DNA of 64,000 nucleotides from an uncultured Clostridia bacterium (lineage in GTDB: Bacteria; Bacillota; Clostridia; Christensenellales; CAG-138): assembly GCA_947168565.1 (NCBI GenBank), contig CAMVMM010000003.1, forward strand, positions 1 through 64,000. Reading direction: 5' to 3'. Positions 34,119 through 43,925 of this stretch are shown piece by piece. The notes under the pieces are model-generated. The model did not search any database and was not told where the DNA came from. It saw nothing but the letters and a program-made list of their open reading frames with translations. Made by a program: the position numbers and the translations under genes. Positions within the stretch are counted from its first letter, which is position 1, and the number at the start of each line of letters is the position of its first letter.

Positions 34119-34546
34119 AAAAACAGGAATACCTTTCTTGGCATATAGTCGGCGGGCAAGGCAGCTTGCGGCGGGAAGGAGGCCTTCGGCAGGAAGGCGC
34201 AAAGCCGCCGCCGATCTCCGCTTTACCAACAGATTATAACCTATTTCGCCGCATTTTCGCAACATGATTTTTATTTTTACAGCATATTACACTGTTATAA
34301 CCTGCGCGGCGAGGCGGCGCCGGGTGCGATGAAAACAGGAAAAATAACGAACGAGGGCGGCAGAACGTGGGGAAAATCTATTGAAGCGGCGCAAAATAAA
34401 ATTACTTTAAGAAAAAACAAAGAAAAAATTCGTAAAAGGTATTGCATTTATTGAAACTAAACGATATAATTAGTTATCCTATGTTGCATATACCATAGCC
34501 GATTTCGGTGAAGGGTGGATGCAATAATATTATTAGGAGGATAGAT
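34119..34546. other. Divergent intergenic region before the Opp operon
   Basis: 428 bases. The right half is AT-rich and carries the oppA promoter (34442-34470). In the left half the coding frame of the NlpC-like gene stays open to 34265, so a longer N-terminus cannot be excluded. I see no other gene or RNA. Confidence 0.6.
34442..34470 (+). promoter_or_regulatory. Sigma-A promoter for the Opp operon
   Basis: TTGCAT (34442-34447), 17-base spacer, TATAAT (34465-34470). Leader of about 70 bases to the oppA start. Confidence 0.8.
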
Positions 34547-36739
34547 ATGAAAAGATTCATCGCACTGTGCCTCGTCGTGATCATGGCGTTCTCCATGTTC
34601 GCGGCCTGCCAGCGGTCGGACCAGGGCACCAACACCCCTGCTCCCGCCACCAACCCCCCCGCGGGCGATACCACCAATCCCCCCGAGGGCGAAACCACTC
34701 CCGAACAGCAGGAGGCCACTCCCGCTCCCACCCCCTTCGTGCGTCCCACCAGCTATATCCGTGCTGACGACGAAGAAGTTTACGAGCGCGCTCTCGGCGA
34801 GTTCGAGGCGATGATGGCAGCAGCGAAGGCCGCTCCCACCGTTGACGAGAAATTCGTTCTGTACGCTCAGGCCGAAGCTTACCTGCTCTCCACCGGCGTT
34901 ATGATCCCCGCCACCACCCAGGGCGGTGCATACGCCATCAGCAGGGTAGCTCCCCGCACCATCCCCTACGTTCAGTGGGGCAACGATGACGACCGTTTCT
35001 TCGGTATGGTCATCTCCGATGAGTTCATCACCAAAGAGGAGCGCGCCGAGCTCATGCAGATGTGGCGCGACGCTATCGACGGTAAGGGCGAATACGATCC
35101 CGCCGGCTATCTCACCGGCAAGGGCCACACCCTGAATAAGGAATACAACCTTACCTTCTCCACCGCTCCCGTTACCATCGACTGGCTGAACACCAGCGCC
35201 CAGTCCGATACCGAGATCACCGTGAACACCGTTGACGGTCTCGTTCAGTACAACAACCTCGGCGTTCTCCAGCCCGCTCTTGCTGAGAGCTGGGAGGAGT
35301 CCGAGGACGGCCTCACCTACACCTTCCACATCCGTGACAACGCCAAGTGGTACTCCTCCGAGGGCCGCGAGGTTGCTCCCGTCACCGCCGATGACTTCGT
35401 TGCGGGCTTCCAGCACATGCTGGACTGCGACGCGGGTCTTGATTGGCTCGTTGAAGGCGTTGTTGCCGGCGTTGACAAGTACATCAAGGAAGGCGCAAGC
35501 TTCGACGTGGTCGGCTACAAGGCTCCCGACGATCGTACCCTCGTCATCACCCTTGAAGCGCCCACCAGCTACTTCATGACCATGCTCACCTACTCCTGCT
35601 TCCTCCCCATCTGCAGGAGCTTCTATGAGAGCCGCGGCGGCGTTTTCGGCAGGGATGCCTATGCTGAGGCCAGCCAGGACACCACCAAGTACACCTACGG
35701 TCTGAACACCGACGTTTCCTCCCAGGTTTACTGCGGTCCCTTCCTTCTCAGGAAGCTGCAGGATCAGTCCGAGATCCTCATTGTGAAGAATGAAAACTAC
35801 TACAACAAGGACAAGGTCATGCTCGACTCCATCAAGTGGGTCATGGACGACGGCTCCAACCCCACCGCCTTCTATACCGACACCGTGAACGGCACCTACC
35901 CCGGCTGCTCTCTCGGTGCTTCCTCCGGTCTGCTTGACCTTGCTAAGAAGGACGGCAACTTCGATAAGTATTCCTACATCACCGACACCACCTCCACCAC
36001 CTACTTCGGCGGTCTGAACCTGAACCGCGGCACCTTCCAGCTTGAGAGCGGCGCCGTTGCTTCCAAAAAGACCGAAGATCAGAAGATCGACACCTTCATC
36101 GCCATGCAGAACCAGAGCTTCCGTCTCGCGGTTCAGTACGCCTTCGATAAGAAGACCTACAACGCCACTTCCCGCGGTGAGGAGCTTGCAGAGGCTTCCC
36201 TGCGCAATATGTACACCCATCCCGAGTTCGTGCTGCTTTCCTCCGACCAGACCGATGCCGACGGCCATACCTTCCCGGCCGGCACCTTCTATGGCGACAT
36301 GGTTCAGCACTACGTAAAGGAAAAGTACAATATGCCCATCGACGTGCATGACGGCGTGAACGGCTGGTACCATCCCGAGGAGGCCAAGAAGATGCTCGCC
36401 AAGGCCGTTGAAGAGCTTGGCGATTCCGTCACCTGGCCCATCCACATCGAGGTTACCAACGGCGCATACAACGAGTCCCTCAACAACCAGGCGGAAGCTT
36501 ACAAGAGGGTTATCGAGGAAACCCTCGGCACCGACAGGGTCGTCGTTGACCTCATTAAGGCCGACAATAAGGACGACTACTATGCCAGCGGCTACCGCGC
36601 CAAGAACGGTGAGGCCGGAAACTTCGACTTCTTCGCAGGTTCCGGCTGGGGCCCCGACTTCGGTGATCCCTGCACCTACCTTGACACCTTCCTTGGCCGC
36701 GGCGCAGGCTACATGACCAAGGTTATCGGTCTGTTCTAA
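34547..36739 (+). CDS. oppA: Oligopeptide-binding lipoprotein, apparently circularly permuted
   Basis: 730 residues. Lipoprotein signal (FSMFAAC, lipidated Cys near 21), then a Thr/Pro/Glu-rich linker. Residues ~200-730 follow the SBP_bac_5 order: LTFSTAPVTIDWLN, LQPALAESWEESEDGLTYTF, VTADDFVAGFQHML, and the end GSGWGPDFGDPCTYLDTFL. The protein stops just there, where other family members continue with a helix pair (the segment ending in the AE-x-L-x-x-x-x-x-x-IP motif). That missing part appears instead at residues ~70-160 (ALGEFEAMMAAAKAA, LYAQAEAYLLSTGVMIP, YAISRVAP). The family delivers peptides to OppBCDF. AGGAGG precedes ATG 34547. C-ending codons suggest very high expression. Confidence 0.92.
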   Translation: MKRFIALCLVVIMAFSMFAACQRSDQGTNTPAPATNPPAGDTTNPPEGETTPEQQEATPAPTPFVRPTSYIRADDEEVYERALGEFEAMMAAAKAAPTVDEKFVLYAQAEAYLLSTGVMIPATTQGGAYAISRVAPRTIPYVQWGNDDDRFFGMVISDEFITKEERAELMQMWRDAIDGKGEYDPAGYLTGKGHTLNKEYNLTFSTAPVTIDWLNTSAQSDTEITVNTVDGLVQYNNLGVLQPALAESWEESEDGLTYTFHIRDNAKWYSSEGREVAPVTADDFVAGFQHMLDCDAGLDWLVEGVVAGVDKYIKEGASFDVVGYKAPDDRTLVITLEAPTSYFMTMLTYSCFLPICRSFYESRGGVFGRDAYAEASQDTTKYTYGLNTDVSSQVYCGPFLLRKLQDQSEILIVKNENYYNKDKVMLDSIKWVMDDGSNPTAFYTDTVNGTYPGCSLGASSGLLDLAKKDGNFDKYSYITDTTSTTYFGGLNLNRGTFQLESGAVASKKTEDQKIDTFIAMQNQSFRLAVQYAFDKKTYNATSRGEELAEASLRNMYTHPEFVLLSSDQTDADGHTFPAGTFYGDMVQHYVKEKYNMPIDVHDGVNGWYHPEEAKKMLAKAVEELGDSVTWPIHIEVTNGAYNESLNNQAEAYKRVIEETLGTDRVVVDLIKADNKDDYYASGYRAKNGEAGNFDFFAGSGWGPDFGDPCTYLDTFLGRGAGYMTKVIGLF

Positions 36740-36769
36740 TTCAAATCCACAGCGGATCAATACCGCACC

Positions 36770-36797
36770 GCATATAGGGGGGAAACCCCCTATATGC
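36770..36797 (+). promoter_or_regulatory. Stem-loop between oppA and oppB
   Basis: GCATATAGGGGG pairs with CCCCCTATATGC (12 bp, small loop). No T run follows, so it more likely protects the oppA message from 3' decay, or gives partial termination, than fully stops transcription. This would let the binding protein be made in excess. Confidence 0.75.
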
Positions 36798-36967
36798 GCA
36801 TAATGAAAAGCATTTCCCCCTTTCTTTTTGCCGAAGCAGGACTTCGGGTTTAAAGAAAAGCCTTGAAAAATCGCGTTTATTCACTTTTTATCGCGCGATT
36901 CAAGACCAAACACAAAAATTAATGAGAGGGAGATTACGGCTCCGCGCCGTATTCATAGTAACAGCTT

Positions 36968-38560
36968 ATGGGTAAATATTTGCTTAAGCGCATACTTTTC
37001 TCCATTTTCTCGCTTGTTTGCGTCGTTGGCATAGTGATGCTGCTCGTTTATTCGCTTATAAAGCGCAGCGTTATCTTCCAGTCGGACGACATGTGGGGCA
37101 AGAAAGCTCTCAACGATCAGCAGATGTATGAGTACACCATGTATCAAAAATACGGTTATCTCACATTCGTTGACTACGGCAGCTTCCTTAAGGAAAAGTA
37201 CAGCGCAAAATATGGCGAAGGCTATGAAAGCCAGCCTGATTACATCGCGGACCGCGATGCCATCAAAGACCCCAAAACCTATGAATCCAACACAAGCGTT
37301 CAGGAATTCAAGGAAAAGTATAAGGGCGACAATATAGTTTATATGGAGCCCAAGAACTATTCCACCGGCGGCATGAAGCCCGGCGGAAGACCCTACCTCA
37401 TCGCTTCTCACGAAAAATCCGTCTTTTCCAGATTGTGGAATTATTTCACCGGTCTTATCACCGTTGAGCATAAAAACATGGTCCAGGACGAGAGGCTGAC
37501 CGATCGCTACGTAAGGTTCGAAAAGGACCCCTATTCGTGGGCGGGCTTCGCGCTCGTGGGATCGGGCACGCAGCATAAGTATCTGCTGTATTTCGACGAA
37601 CGGTTCCCGTTCATACATCAGAACTTCATTCATTTTAACTTCGGCACATCCTATACGACATATCGCGGACAGGAGATCACCTCGGTCATATCCGAAAAAA
37701 CGGGCGATCTTAAGATAACCCGCCAGCAGTTCCCCGCAAAGCTCGGCACCGACGAGTGGGAGGACACGGCAATCGATTTCCATTCGCTGCAATATAACTC
37801 TGCGGAGAACATCAACCCGGCGGATGCCGAGAACTTCAACGACAGGTACACGGTCTACACATTCAGGAAAACCGGCCTCTCCATGCTCGGCAATTCCTTT
37901 GTGATCGGTCTTGTGTCCGTTATCATCTCCTACGTTCTCGGTGTTTCCATCGGTATCCTGATGGCGCGCAAGAAGGATAAGCTTGTGGATAAGCTCGGCA
38001 AGGCATACATCGTGTTCATCTCCGCCGTGCCCTCGCTCGCCTATATCTTCATAGTTGCCGCAATCGGCACCCAGGTATTCGGGCTTCCCTATAAGTTTGC
38101 TACCGCGCCCAAGGGTGCGCAGATCCTTGCCTATATCCTTCCCACCATTTCGCTTTCACTCGGCTCCATCGGCTCCCTCATGAAGTGGACCCGCCGCTAC
38201 ATGATCGACCAGATGAACTCCGACTACGTCAAGTTCGCCCGCGCCGAGGGTATGAGCGAGAAGGAGATCTACAATATCCATATCTCCAGGAACGCTTTCA
38301 TCTACCTCGTTCACGGCATCCCGTCCAGCATTCTTTTCTGCCTGACCGGTGCTCTTATGACCGAGCGCGTTTACGGCGTTCCCGGCGTTGGCGGCCTTCT
38401 GATCAACGCCATCAACCTGCATGATAACGCTGTTATCGTGGCTATGACCGGCATCATAACCGCGATCAGCATTATCGGCCAGATACTCGGCGACCTGCTT
38501 CTTGCCAAGTACGACCCGCGTATCTCCCTCTCTTCAGACAGTGGCGGAGGTAGAAAGTAA
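36968..38560 (+). CDS. oppB: Oligopeptide transporter permease, with large extra domain
   Basis: 530 residues against a usual 305-340. The first membrane helix is at ~7-30; the remaining five start at ~305 (GNSFVIGLVSVIISYVLGVS). Between them lie about 270 hydrophilic residues, mostly Tyr/Asp/Lys-rich, which should be outside the cell where the family has only ~80. The cytoplasmic EAA-type loop that docks on the ATPases is intact (DYVKFARAEGMSEKEIYNIH). The gene follows oppA by 228 bases and overlaps oppC by one base (TAATG). No strong ribosome site is visible before ATG 36968. Confidence 0.93.
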   Translation: MGKYLLKRILFSIFSLVCVVGIVMLLVYSLIKRSVIFQSDDMWGKKALNDQQMYEYTMYQKYGYLTFVDYGSFLKEKYSAKYGEGYESQPDYIADRDAIKDPKTYESNTSVQEFKEKYKGDNIVYMEPKNYSTGGMKPGGRPYLIASHEKSVFSRLWNYFTGLITVEHKNMVQDERLTDRYVRFEKDPYSWAGFALVGSGTQHKYLLYFDERFPFIHQNFIHFNFGTSYTTYRGQEITSVISEKTGDLKITRQQFPAKLGTDEWEDTAIDFHSLQYNSAENINPADAENFNDRYTVYTFRKTGLSMLGNSFVIGLVSVIISYVLGVSIGILMARKKDKLVDKLGKAYIVFISAVPSLAYIFIVAAIGTQVFGLPYKFATAPKGAQILAYILPTISLSLGSIGSLMKWTRRYMIDQMNSDYVKFARAEGMSEKEIYNIHISRNAFIYLVHGIPSSILFCLTGALMTERVYGVPGVGGLLINAINLHDNAVIVAMTGIITAISIIGQILGDLLLAKYDPRISLSSDSGGGRK

Positions 38561-39534
38561 TGAACGACGAAAAGAACATGATCAACACCTCCAAGGAAGC
38601 TGATCTCGGTTTCGATGTCGTCGGAAACGACGCCATATCGTCCGAAAAGATCATAGCGCCAAGGTATTCATATTGGAAATCCGTTTTCCGCGTATTCTTC
38701 CGCAAAAAGTCGAATATCGCCCTCATCGGGCTGTTCGTGCTCATGGTTTTCTCCGCGATCGTCGTGCCGCTCATCTGCCCGTACGATCCGCTTGAAAACG
38801 TTACGAATGCCTCCGCGTACAACCTCAGCCCCGCCAAGGCTATGGCGCAGTTCGGCACCTCGTTCAAGTGGCTGCTCGGCTCCGGCCCGCAGGGCAACTC
38901 CATCATGTACAATATCTTCGCCGGTGCGCGCACCTCGCTGCTTCTTGCGGTCGTGTGCGCCGCGATAAACATGACCATCGGCATCCTGCTCGGCGCCGTT
39001 TGGGGCTTCTCCAAAAAGCTGGACGCCATCTTCATTCCCATCTACAATATCCTTGCGAACGTGCCTTTCATCCTGGTCGTTGCCGTTCTTATCTACGTTA
39101 TCGGCTCCGGCTTCTGGAACATGGTTTTCGCCATGACGATCACCGGCTGGCTCGGCATCGCGTACTTCTTCAGAACGCAGGTTATGATCATCCGCGACCG
39201 CGAGTATTCGCTCGCATCAAAGTGTCTCGGCACCCCCGTGGGCAGGATCGTTTCCAAAAACATCCTCCCGTTCCTCACCAGCGTTATTGTTACCCTGCTT
39301 GCCACCGAGGTTCCCTCCTACATCAGCCTTGAAACCTATATGTCCTTCATCGGCATCGGTCTGAGCGCGGAGGTTCCCTCCCTTGGCCGCATGATCTCCG
39401 CCGCGCAGACGGCGTTCATCACCTATCCCTGGGAATTCTGGCCTCCCGTCATCTATGCCGCAATGCTGACCATCATCCTTTATCTGCTCGGTCAGAACCT
39501 TGCGGACGCGACGGATCCCAAGACCCATATGTAA
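38560..39534 (+). CDS. oppC: Oligopeptide transporter permease
   Basis: 324 residues, normal length. N-terminal OppC_N region with the first helix (SNIALIGLFVLMVFSAIVVP), five further helices, and the coupling loop EYSLASKCLGTPVGRIVSKN. In place of the usual short HPLGTD-type motif it has WLLGSGPQGNSIMYNIFAGA. Start codon overlaps the oppB stop. It forms the channel with OppB. Confidence 0.95.
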   Translation: MNDEKNMINTSKEADLGFDVVGNDAISSEKIIAPRYSYWKSVFRVFFRKKSNIALIGLFVLMVFSAIVVPLICPYDPLENVTNASAYNLSPAKAMAQFGTSFKWLLGSGPQGNSIMYNIFAGARTSLLLAVVCAAINMTIGILLGAVWGFSKKLDAIFIPIYNILANVPFILVVAVLIYVIGSGFWNMVFAMTITGWLGIAYFFRTQVMIIRDREYSLASKCLGTPVGRIVSKNILPFLTSVIVTLLATEVPSYISLETYMSFIGIGLSAEVPSLGRMISAAQTAFITYPWEFWPPVIYAAMLTIILYLLGQNLADATDPKTHM

Positions 39535-39549
39535 GAGGAGGACTGAATT

Positions 39550-41592
39550 ATGGAAAAAAACAACGATAGAAAAGTCCTTCTGTCCCTCAAGGACGTGGAA
39601 GTCAAATTCAACGTCCGCGGACGAATCCTCACCGCTATCCGCCGCGTTTCACTTGATATTTTCGAAAACGAATCGCTTGCGATAGTGGGCGAATCCGGCT
39701 CCGGCAAATCGGTTCTCACCAAAACCTTCGCCGGTATGCTTGAAACCAACGGCTTCATCTCAAACGGCTCCATCATCTTTTCGGATGATGAAATATCGGA
39801 AACCAACGTAAGGCTCACTCCGCGCAACAGGAGCGCCCTGAAGAAATATACCGATATGCTGAACAGAAACTCCGTGCTTGAGCGCGGCGCCGCCGAGTTC
39901 AACGCCATAGAGGAGAAGAAGCGCGCCATCCATGCCGCACAGTCCCTCAGTCAGGATGAGGAGGCGGATTTCAACGCCCGCATCAAGGCATTGAAGGACG
40001 GCGCGGTGGATAAGAACAACTACCTTCAAACGCTCGACTCCCGCAACCATGAGGATGCGATCGAGATGGATAAGGTTAAAAAGGAGATCGCCAAGCTGAA
40101 TGCGGATAGGGAAGCCGTTGAAGGCGAAATGAAAGCCCTGATCGAAAAGCGCAAGAGCGCCTATGCCTCCGATTCCGCGCGCGCCGCGAAGGATCAGGAG
40201 GAGCTCAAAAAACTTGAGGCGCTCAGAGCCGAGAAGATCGCCAAGGCGGACGATCCCAAAAACCCGAACGGCCTTTCAAACGCCGTTATCGAGCGCAACG
40301 AGCGCATAGCAAAGGAGATACTGCTCTCCACCGCCAGATACCCGCTCAAGGAGCAGCTCAAGTTCAGGGGAAAGCTCGATAAGGCGTTCAAGGTGGCTAT
40401 GAGCACGGGCGAGGATCTGAACGATCCGGAGGTGCTCAATAAGGTTTTCGACGTTGCAACCTTCCGCGTTGAATATCGCGGCACGGACGAGATCGCCGTG
40501 AAGGATCTTCAGGCGGTCGAGGATAAGGCGAAGGACGTTCTCAAAGCCGAAGCACTGCTCGGCAAGGCCGAAACCAGGCTCTCAAGGCTCAAATCCAAAA
40601 AATCGCAGGCAGGCGTTGAAGAAGCGCAGGCGGCGGTTGAGGAAGCAAAAAAAGCCGTCAAAAAGGCTAAGGCTGAGGCGGAGAAGGCGAAGGACGAGCT
40701 GGGCAGCAGAACTCCCGCACCCGGCGAGGAATCCGTCAGCATGCTTCGCGGCTATGCCATCATCGACTGCGCCAAGGTCAAGTACACGCGCGACTGGCAG
40801 AGCATTCGCGGCCGCCGCATAGCAACCGTTTTCCAGGATCCCATGACCTCGCTCAACCCGGTCATCACCATCGGCAAGCAGATCCAAAACGTTATCCTCA
40901 AGCATCAGCAGTGCTCAAGGGAGGAGGCGAAGCGCCGCACCATCGACATAATGGCGAAGGTGGGCATCCCCGATCCCGAAAAGCGCTTCAACGACTATCC
41001 CTTTGAGTATTCCGGCGGTATGCGCCAGAGGATCGTTATAGCCATCGCGCTCTCCTGCCAGCCCAAGATACTGATCTGCGACGAGCCCACCACCGCACTG
41101 GACGTTACCATTCAGGCGCAGATAATAAGGCTCATCAAGGATCTTCAGCAGGAGCTCGGCTACACCACCGTGTATATCACGCACGACCTCGGCGTTGTGG
41201 CAAACGTTGCGGAGCGCGTGGCGGTGCTGTACGCGGGTCAGATCGTTGAGATCGGCACCGTTGAAGAGGTGTTCTACGATCCGCGCCATCCGTACACCTG
41301 GGCGCTGCTTTCCTCCCTGCCGCAGCTTTGCGAAAAGGGCACGGATCTGTTCTCGATCCCCGGCACCCCGCCCTCTCTTTACAACAAGATAAAGGGCGAC
41401 GCCTTCGCGCCGAGAAACCAGTACGCAATGTCCATCGACCTGAAGGAGGAGCCCCCCATGTTCAAGGTAACGGACACGCACTACGCCAAAACCTGGCTTC
41501 TCGATCCGCGCGCGCCAAAGATCGAAACACCGCACAATATTCAGAATCTGCATGAGAAGATGCTCAAATCTTATGTGGATTACAAGGCATAA
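39550..41592 (+). CDS. oppD: Oligopeptide transporter ATPase with coiled-coil insertion
   Basis: 680 residues against a usual ~330-350. Walker A (GESGSGKS, 47-54) is normal. The Q-loop ([11 protein letters not shown]) then comes only at ~Gln429 instead of near 100. The ~320 residues between are highly charged and mostly helical, with long Ala/Glu/Lys stretches ([20 protein letters not shown]) typical of coiled coils. The rest is normal: signature YSGGMRQR, Walker [16 protein letters not shown]-loop ITHDLGVV and the C-terminal oligopeptide/dipeptide domain with PGTPPS. The reading frame is continuous, so this is not a fusion of two genes. AGAGGAGG precedes the ATG. Confidence 0.93.
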
Positions 41593-41603
41593 GGAGATTG
41601 CGT

Positions 41604-42557
41604 ATGGACAACACAAATAAAGAGGTATTGCTTTCAATACAAAATCTCGACGTTGTATTCGGCAGGGGAAAGAAGTCCTTCAAGGCTGTCGATAATGTCA
41701 GCTTCGATATCTACAAGGGCGAAACGCTTTCCCTCGTTGGCGAATCCGGCTCCGGCAAAACCACCATCGGCCGCGCAATAATCAGGATCAACCCCTGCTC
41801 CGCAGGTCAGATCCTTTTCAAGGGCAAGCGCATCTCCGGCAAGCTCTCCCGCAGCGAGGACCGCGAGGTGATCCGCAAGATCCAGATGATCTTTCAGGAT
41901 CCGGCCGCTTCGCTGAACGAGCGCGCCACCATCGAATACATCATCTCCGAAGGTCTGTATAACTTCCATCTTTATAAGGATGAGAAGGACAGAATGGCGA
42001 AGATAGAGCGCATCACGGAGGAGGTCGGTCTTTTGCCCGAGCATCTGACCCGCTATCCGCACGAATTCTCCGGCGGCCAGCGCCAGCGCGTCGGCCTTGC
42101 CCGCTCCATAGTTATGGAGCCGGAATTCATAATTGCGGATGAGCCCATCTCCGCGCTGGACGTTTCCATCCGCGCTCAGGTTCTGAACCTTCTTGAAAGG
42201 TTCCAAAAGGAGAGGGGGCTGACCTATCTTTTCATAGCGCACGATCTTTCCATCGTTCGCTTCATCAGCGACCGCATCGTGGTTATCTATAAGGGCAGGA
42301 TCATGGAAATAGCGGAAACGGAGGAGCTGTTCCACTATCCGCTGCATCCCTATACCAAGTCCCTTATGAGCGCTATCCCGGTTCCCGATCCCAGGATCGA
42401 GAAAACCAAGAAGCTCTTCGTTTACGACTCGAAGATCCACGATTATTCCACCGAGAAGCCTTCGCTTGTGGATATCGGCAACGGCCATTTCGTTTTCGGA
42501 AGTCCCTCCGAGATCGAAAAGTACAGGAAGATCCGCGCGGAAGCTCCAATTCAGTAA
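41604..42557 (+). CDS. oppF: Oligopeptide transporter ATPase
   Basis: 317 residues, normal length. Walker [11 protein letters not shown]-loop [11 protein letters not shown], signature [10 protein letters not shown], Walker [16 protein letters not shown]-loop IAHDLSIV, and the C-terminal oligopeptide domain. It has no insertion, unlike its partner OppD. ATG 41604 sits seven bases after AAGGAG; the TTG two codons earlier is too close. Last gene of the operon, followed by a terminator. Confidence 0.96.
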
Positions 42558-42641: not shown

Positions 42642-43925
42642 ATGAAAAAATATAAAAACCTGAAGCGCCTGAACTCCCAAGAGCTGCAAAACCCCTCCGA
42701 AAAGCATAATGAAAAGCTGAAAACCATCCTCATCATCGCGGGGCTGGTGGTGTTTGCCGTTGTGAGCGTTTACGCCCTGTTTGCCTTCATTATGAAGGCG
42801 GCGCACCGTGACCCGGGCTATTACAGACTGGAGGCGGAAAAGAACGACGAAGCGCCGCTTTACGCAGGCAATTTCGCCTTTGAGCATTATTTCGAAGGCG
42901 AGAGCATCGAGATCAAATACGCCGTGGATGCCTGCTCCCAAAAATACAGCGGGCTGCTTGCGCGCATTTTCAAGCTGACGGACGCAAAAAACCTTTATGA
43001 CGGCTGCAAAAATATCGCCTATATCAACGCGCATCCCGGCGAGGAGGTGGAGATAGAAAAGGAGCTTTTCTCCATTCTTTCCTCCGCGGCGGAGCTTACC
43101 GCAAGGGGCGAATTCAATATGCTTGCCGGTGCGCTTCAATCGACCTGGAGCGATATCATCTATTCAAACGCGCCGCAGGAGTTCGATCCGATGCTGAACG
43201 AGGTGCAGAAAAACCGCATCGCCGCCGCCGTGAAATGTGCGGGCGATCCGAACTTTTTCAAATTTGAAATAGTTGATGAAGCAAGCCGCAGGGTGCGCCT
43301 CAGCGTTTCGGAGCAGGGCGCGGCGTTCATGCGTGAAAACGATTTTGAGCCGCTTGTGCTCGATCTCGGCTTCCTGCGGGATGCCTTTATAATCGATACC
43401 GTTTGTGCGCTGATGGAGGCGGAGGGCTACGATAACGGCTATATGTCCTCCGTGAACGGCGCAAGCAGGGCGCTGAAAAGCATGGGCGAGGGGCATGAAT
43501 ACGTGGCCTACGGCATGGCGGACGGCGAGGCGGCGCAGGCATACTCCATGCCAATGCTGCCCTCAAGCAGCTGCTGCGCTCTTCGCGCCTTCGGCATGGA
43601 GGGCGAGCTGGGCTATTACGGCATTTCTGCCGAGGGCGGGGAGCTGCTGCGGCACCCGAATATTTCGCTTGAAACGGGCGAGGTGAGCGATACGGCGCTT
43701 TCCGCCTGCGCGTACTCTTCGGGCGGCACGGCGGTGGAAGCCTGCCTTGCCGCGCATTCGCTGATGAGCGCGAAAAGCCCTGCGGAGCTTGAAGCCGCGC
43801 TTTCAGAAGGCGGCTCGATGCTGCGCGCATTCATTCTCAAAAGCGAGCCCATGAGCATACACGCATCGGCAGGGCATGAAAACGTGCTGAAATGCCTGAA
43901 CGGGTTCAAGCTTTCGGAACGGTAA
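42642..43925 (+). CDS. Membrane-anchored, degenerate ApbE-like protein
   Basis: 427 residues. One membrane segment at ~27-50; the rest should be outside. The body follows the order of ApbE (FAD:protein FMN transferase): AHPGEEVEIEKELFSILSSA, GEFNMLAGALQSTWSD (cf. FDpTvgPL-x-x-LW), PLVLDLGFLRDAFIID (cf. vDLGGIAKGYAvD), a central strand region, and SDTALSACAYSSGGTAVEAC (cf. ADalSTA...). Key residues are lost: the GGIAKG glycine/lysine motif reads GFLRDA, and the metal-binding end is poor. I infer a non-catalytic descendant that may bind flavin or a partner. ATG 42642 follows AAGGA. Confidence 0.6.
   Translation: MKKYKNLKRLNSQELQNPSEKHNEKLKTILIIAGLVVFAVVSVYALFAFIMKAAHRDPGYYRLEAEKNDEAPLYAGNFAFEHYFEGESIEIKYAVDACSQKYSGLLARIFKLTDAKNLYDGCKNIAYINAHPGEEVEIEKELFSILSSAAELTARGEFNMLAGALQSTWSDIIYSNAPQEFDPMLNEVQKNRIAAAVKCAGDPNFFKFEIVDEASRRVRLSVSEQGAAFMRENDFEPLVLDLGFLRDAFIIDTVCALMEAEGYDNGYMSSVNGASRALKSMGEGHEYVAYGMADGEAAQAYSMPMLPSSSCCALRAFGMEGELGYYGISAEGGELLRHPNISLETGEVSDTALSACAYSSGGTAVEACLAAHSLMSAKSPAELEAALSEGGSMLRAFILKSEPMSIHASAGHENVLKCLNGFKLSER

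Follow-up and report, generated by a model that had tools for sequence, protein, structure and literature searches.

A gene on the plus strand of a 64,000-nucleotide stretch from an uncultured Clostridia bacterium (contig CAMVMM010000003.1, positions 1 to 64,000; hereafter the window) encodes what we consider, with a probability of roughly 0.9, to be an oligopeptide-binding protein of Cluster C (SBP_bac_5) with a natural circular permutation, part of an Ami/Opp-type ATP-binding cassette (ABC) importer. The segment that usually ends such proteins stands near the N-terminus, this order is conserved, the proteins sharing it form a single clade, and the gene belongs to a complete importer operon. 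We regard the permutation as real and conserved and as probably functional. Proteins of the SBP_bac_5 family and of Cluster C usually have the normal N-to-C order, though this lies outside their formal definition; the window protein departs from it and is therefore filed as a permuted variant and not as an ordinary member. A first-pass annotation of the DNA had already proposed a permutation here and had the coordinates (34547..36739) and frame right: the frame runs uninterrupted from ATG at 34547 to the TAA stop codon (36737..36739), encodes 730 amino acids and is preceded by a ribosome-binding site (AGGAGG, 34535..34540).

In chain order, the protein (substrate-binding protein, SBP) consists of a signal peptide with a lipobox-like pattern and lipid-anchor Cys21 (FAAC; 34547..34609), a fast-evolving linker rich in Pro, Thr and Glu (residues 22-73, 34610..34765), the transposed segment (residues 74-175, 34766..35071) equivalent to the normal C-terminal ~100 residues, a new connector (residues 176-196, GEYDPAGYLTGKGH, 35072..35134) bridging the usual C-terminus and the usual first strand, and the SBP_bac_5 core (residues 197-730, 35135..36736), equivalent to the normal first ~500 residues. 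The core was delimited by Pfam and by alignments with the pneumococcal AliB, AmiA and AliD, and carries a single match to PF00496 (residues 241-719, model positions 2-364 of 368; 153.8 bits against a cut-off of 32.4). The first-pass annotation had described the C-terminus as cut short directly after a motif that it quoted. The shortening stands, with 22 residues after WGPDFGDP against 94-163 in normal-order relatives (17 of 18, in which the motif was found), but the protein ends 14 residues beyond the quoted motif (...CTYLDTFLGRGAGYMTKVIGLF).

The missing end was identified at the other terminus by several profile comparisons. When the window protein was searched against PDB with phmmer, residues 194-729 aligned with the beginning of the Ami/Ali chains of pneumococci (positions 3-500) and residues 74-183 with their final part (505-624). 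For the N-terminal piece, these single-sequence matches had independent E-values (i-E) of 9.8e-8 for AliC and 1.6e-4 for AmiA, and were weak for AliB (0.022) and AliD (0.039). When 28 such N-terminal segments were combined into a profile, only five of 177,635 PDB sequences were found at E<=1. Four of these were AliC (the best, E 1.5e-12), AmiA, AliD and AliB, all matched at their extreme C-termini (positions 503-622, E 1.5e-12 to 1.1e-9), and the fifth was a weak match to DppE (452-490, E 0.011). Conversely, a profile hidden Markov model (HMM) of the normal C-terminus, built from 17 sequences after one of 18 relatives had been omitted for want of the motif, matched the N-terminal part of all 28 permuted proteins (i-E 7e-22 to 2e-7) and the C-terminal part of further normal-order proteins, with no match among 56 reversed or shuffled decoys. 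Profile-profile comparison by hhalign assigned the N-terminal segments to the normal C-terminal section (98.9 %, E 2.2e-17); each of the four remaining sections scored <0.5 %. The first-pass annotation was thus right about the nature of the transposed segment, but its bounds are 74-175 instead of 70-160. The rearranged order is also apparent from the NCBIfam OppA profile NF043077, whose positions 783-886, 38-135, 268-360 and 644-736 correspond to window residues 81-183, 198-292, 332-436 and 622-719. A six-frame search of the 231 bases following the last sense codon revealed no remnant of a normal C-terminus (best E 1.5), and none of the proteins scanned with the C-terminal HMM carried the segment twice, at both ends, as an intermediate would. 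A search of the window genome found no close paralogue of the protein; other matches were weak (E at least 0.001) and lay mostly in the signal-peptide region.

The first-pass annotation had suggested a search for homologues of the same order, and 28 distinct proteins of the window protein's group were found, including two pairs that are >90 % identical. They occur in several Clostridia families (f1, f4, f24, f45 and f58) and in named metagenome-assembled genome (MAG) loci (L042, L043 and L044), among them a one-contig genome of 3.39 Mb (G453) and a two-contig genome (G271). With a query spanning the junction, matches across it were obtained in 12 of the 396 genomes in the order and in 5 of the 391 in the class (the window genome is counted in both), and full-length matches were present in 14 of the 103 genomes of the window's family; no relatives were found in the viral contigs searched. 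A tree of 74 cores (470 columns) places all 28 permuted proteins on one side of a branch with a Shimodaira-Hasegawa-like approximate likelihood-ratio (SH-aLRT) support of 97 and joins them to eight normal-order proteins (SH-aLRT 99), apart from 38 others. A single origin of the permutation from the normal order would be the simplest reading of this tree. The connector of ~20 residues is conserved in the alignment of the 28 proteins, ending in many of them in a KGH/KGY-type motif. Ratios of non-synonymous to synonymous substitution rates (dN/dS) against four close relatives were 0.17-0.38 for the moved segment, which indicates purifying selection on it, 0.28-0.39 for the core and 0.32-1.09 for the linker. 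The permuted SBP of L044 belongs to Spirochaetes bacterium MAG-R016, and a second spirochaete contig (L045) carries the same operon with the SBP gene cut by the contig end. Sequence comparison suggests that the spirochaete copies reflect gene transfer or mis-binning. The operons of L044 (5833-7992) and L045 are ~60 % identical to those of rumen Clostridia.

An AlphaFold2 model with a mean predicted local distance difference test (pLDDT) of 81 and a predicted template modelling score (pTM) of 0.75 shows the predicted two-lobe, three-domain fold of SBP_bac_5/Cluster C proteins. It matches AliD over 489 residues, while the last ~100 residues of AliD are unmatched. Predicted helices lie at residues 185-191 in the connector and at residues 163-177, the latter at the place of the Ali helix alpha19. 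According to PMC11192437, AliD is divided into Domain I (29-63, 191-296 and 583-617), Domain II (64-190) and Domain III or Lobe 2 (297-582), with alpha19 at 622-652. Mapping these boundaries with an offset of 25, which follows from our alignments, we infer that the chain is cut at AliD ~525-530, in Lobe 2 directly after the W/D strand holding the peptide N-terminus. The moved piece would then begin with what remains of Lobe 2 (~74-126), continue with the final stretch of Domain I (~127-160) and finish with the helix at the alpha19 place. With the cut in Lobe 2, Lobe 1 would be one continuous segment (~127-484), Lobe 2 would be split and carry both termini, and the hinge crossings would still number two. 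The permutation can be pictured as a joining of the old N- and C-ends, both on Lobe 1, by the ~20-residue connector and an opening of new ends in a Lobe 2 loop, after which the N-terminal segment would complete Lobe 2 and Domain I of its own chain within the usual two-lobe fold.

Several points weigh against this interpretation. The first AlphaFold2 model (pLDDT 44, low also in the linker) was unusable, and the alignment for the second had to be supplemented with the C-termini of four normal-order proteins as separate fragments; even there, residues 78-87, 624-646 and 660-670 are weakly modelled. Structural matches span model residues 126-667 and do not bear on the moved segment. The first-pass annotation had named a C-lobe complete without residues 70-160 as the outcome that would speak against it, and no such arrangement was seen, although the coordinates needed for a direct measurement of segment docking were not available. 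Pfam alone detects no domain in the moved segment; Pfam and NCBIfam are insensitive on isolated C-terminal pieces, and the normal C-terminus of a normal-order relative (L129) is likewise without a match.

Among other explanations, a domain-swapped oligomer, in which the N-terminal segment completes Lobe 2 of a neighbouring molecule, retains a small chance. AliC does exchange parts between molecules, but these are whole lobes swapped at another hinge (residues 290-294); in the permuted proteins only ~20 conserved residues join segment and core, and the single-chain model is confident, so that folding within one chain appears likely. Less probable is an unrelated extra N-terminal domain on a C-terminally truncated and possibly non-functional SBP, for although the segment lacks a Pfam domain and the normal end is indeed missing from the protein, the HMM, hhalign, the NCBIfam positions and the PDB profile search all identify the segment as that end, dN/dS is well below 1, and the same ends are common to the 28 homologues. 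An artefact of assembly or gene calling, in the form of misjoined contigs or tandem genes, was rejected as next to impossible, despite the fragmented window genome assembly (54 contigs, 92 % complete), on account of the uninterrupted frame with its good ribosome-binding site and the same order in 28 distinct proteins, including those of the one- and two-contig genomes. A giant open frame at G000:C9 was also dismissed, being masked sequence read as N.

The closest solved relatives of the circularly permuted protein are the Ami/Ali proteins AliB (8qlj), AmiA (8a42), AliC (8qlh) and AliD (8qlc) described in PMC11192437, with phmmer E-values of 1e-81 to 9e-71 and 32-36 % identity in structural alignments. 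They have in common with it the three-domain core, the W/D peptide anchor, a helix at the alpha19 place and a permease with a large extracellular part; unlike them, the window protein has the last ~100 residues at its N-terminal side, ends and anchor on Lobe 2, and a partner OppD with a long insert. Natural circular permutation is shared with TpMglB-2 (Tp0684), a glucose-binding protein of Treponema pallidum for which the term 'Type Ic / Cluster Bc' was proposed, and that report describes such conserved permutation in an ABC binding protein of spirochaetes and Gram-positives (PMC4990184). TpMglB-2 has, however, the Cluster B sugar-binding fold, and its permutation adds a fourth hinge crossing, whereas the two crossings of the window protein appear unchanged. 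Pfam and all 50 structural matches listed place the window protein in Cluster C and not in Type I/Cluster B. The search of open-access literature, with subscription papers outside its scope, yielded no permuted Cluster C binding protein.

Mollicute Opp systems (NCBIfam NF043077-NF043081, JCVI-syn MMSYN1_0165-0169) gave the best NCBIfam match for the SBP and the four Opp proteins of the window, but all these matches are under the curated cut-offs and the NF043077 OppA profile has the normal order; a search of the phylum with this profile at E 1e-25 gave no matches, but neither did the controls match, so that this result is uninformative. Normal-order Ami-like proteins from the same bacterial family (L124-L130) form the sister group in the tree, and one genome (G041) encodes permuted and normal-order proteins in separate operons. 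Few transport proteins of bacteria have been studied as much as those of the SBP_bac_5 family, and its permuted members offer a natural experiment on the importance of chain order and tether site in ABC binding proteins. Its conservation across many related bacteria makes the rearrangement look like a genuine, working version of a very well-known protein family. Further permuted proteins may be overlooked, since domain profiles annotate them as ordinary and leave ~100 residues unrecognised.

PMC11192437 reports that W500 and D503 of AliB hold the peptide N-terminus. Their counterparts lie in W701-G-P-D704 (36647..36658), with W701 kept in 26 and D704 in all 28 of the permuted proteins. The permuted protein may bind oligopeptides with a free N-terminus at W701/D704 by the usual closing of the two lobes; the peptide would be passed to OppB/OppC, with OppD/OppF driving transport.

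The first-pass annotation had also supposed that a tether through what is normally the C-lobe would make the protein sit differently on the permease. Such a tether may apply to the lipoprotein members, whose anchor would lead to Lobe 2, not Lobe 1, as a consequence of the new ends in Lobe 2. A simple pattern finds a lipobox-like cysteine in 24 of the 28 proteins. On inspection, those of L111, L112 and L115 were discounted, the cysteine lying within the hydrophobic stretch and being followed by a site resembling an ordinary signal peptidase site; this leaves 21 likely lipoproteins, including the window protein, which has the lipobox typical of Ami/Ali proteins. The seven without a lipobox are L044 and six f4 proteins (L111, L112 and L114-L117). 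By these sequence patterns a lipid anchor is unnecessary for the permuted order, so that tethering through Lobe 2 is not its general point, and the idea of an adaptation to membrane tethering, raised for TpMglB-2, is weakened. Inspection by eye of six normal-order f4 relatives (L063, L068, L069, L073, L074 and L080) revealed no clear lipobox, the cysteine of L068 lying inside the hydrophobic stretch. Binding proteins of f4 thus seem to lack lipoboxes in either chain order, and the anchoring mode appears to follow lineage and not permutation.

The SBP gene heads an operon in which oppBCDF follow, in the window as in those permuted loci long enough to show them, and which includes the two permeases and two ATPases typical of Cluster C systems. 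The stem-loop noted within 35 bases of the stop codon is present as a 13-bp hairpin (36769..36798) between the SBP and permease genes, beginning 29 bases past the stop codon. It is strong and without a T-run, the region folding at -31.4 kcal/mol (z -5.1). A hairpin of this kind is expected at such a gene boundary, internal terminators being reported to control operons of this type in Clostridia (PMC9045158).

The oppB-like permease (36968..38560, 530 amino acids; Pfam BPD_transp_1 at 325-520) has a large extracellular part and is followed by an oppC-like permease (38560..39534, 324 amino acids; BPD_transp_1 and OppC_N, NF043080 best). Both neighbours presumed to be extended, OppB and OppD, are enlarged, but only the OppD insert is distinctive. 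OppB has 519-548 amino acids in the permuted group and 495-499 in the nearest normal-order relatives (AmiC of pneumococci has 498; PMC11192437), and was rejected as a special partner because these sisters have an enlarged OppB too; the 26 OppB proteins of the permuted group are set apart by a branch of modest support (83).

Judged from sequence, the distinctive partner of the permuted SBP is the insert of the oppD-like ATPase (39550..41592, 680 amino acids, assigned by Pfam and NCBIfam; insert approximately 39805..40809, from comparisons and profile). Next to permuted SBPs this insert is charged, coiled-coil-like and 230-325 residues long. The distance from Walker A to the Q-loop is 288-381 residues in 26 such OppDs (L045 included), in contrast to 56 in seven normal-order neighbours and in L150, with L134 left out of the comparison; OppD of the L124-L130 group has no insert and shows this distance of 56. 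Searched with an insert profile, the phylum yielded matches in 2 of 299 genomes, each of which also encodes a permuted SBP. In the family, 15 of 103 genomes matched: the 14 that encode a permuted SBP, plus G025, in which the contig breaks off within oppD, short of the expected SBP position. A strict tie between insert and permutation holds in all genomes examined but was rejected, as the mollicute OppD profile (NF043079) has the insert beside a normal-order OppA profile; the insert may therefore predate the permutation. NF043079 covers the window insert (676.5 bits, positions 1-558 of 561, under its cut-off of 740). Taken alone, the insert of L112 matches this profile (E 3.8e-6), and the inserts of the window and L044 do not reach a match.

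A sixth gene (42642..43925, 427 amino acids) encodes a protein with a single membrane segment at its N-terminus and a domain weakly resembling ApbE (flavin mononucleotide transferase fold; PF02424, 27.2 bits against a cut-off of 25.6). Of the 42 loci searched, 16 have a homologue after OppF, and all of these belong to the permuted group; several other stretches end earlier. Only the window copy barely reaches the ApbE cut-off, three of four others falling below it and one having no ApbE match. It is conceivable, though we consider it rather unlikely, that permuted SBP, OppB with its large extracellular part, OppC, insert-bearing OppD, OppF and the ApbE-like membrane protein form a distinct six-part importer, in which a functional permutation, by placing ends and tether on Lobe 2 and making Lobe 1 continuous, would alter docking or closing on the permease, with the changed ATPase and the sixth protein as its counterparts.

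The oppF-like ATPase has 317 amino acids (41604..42557); its open reading frame opens with TTG at 41598, and its homologues begin at the second methionine. In a subgroup of permuted loci (L112, L114-L117 and L120-L122), OppF has 429-442 amino acids where complete, ~110 residues more than in the window.
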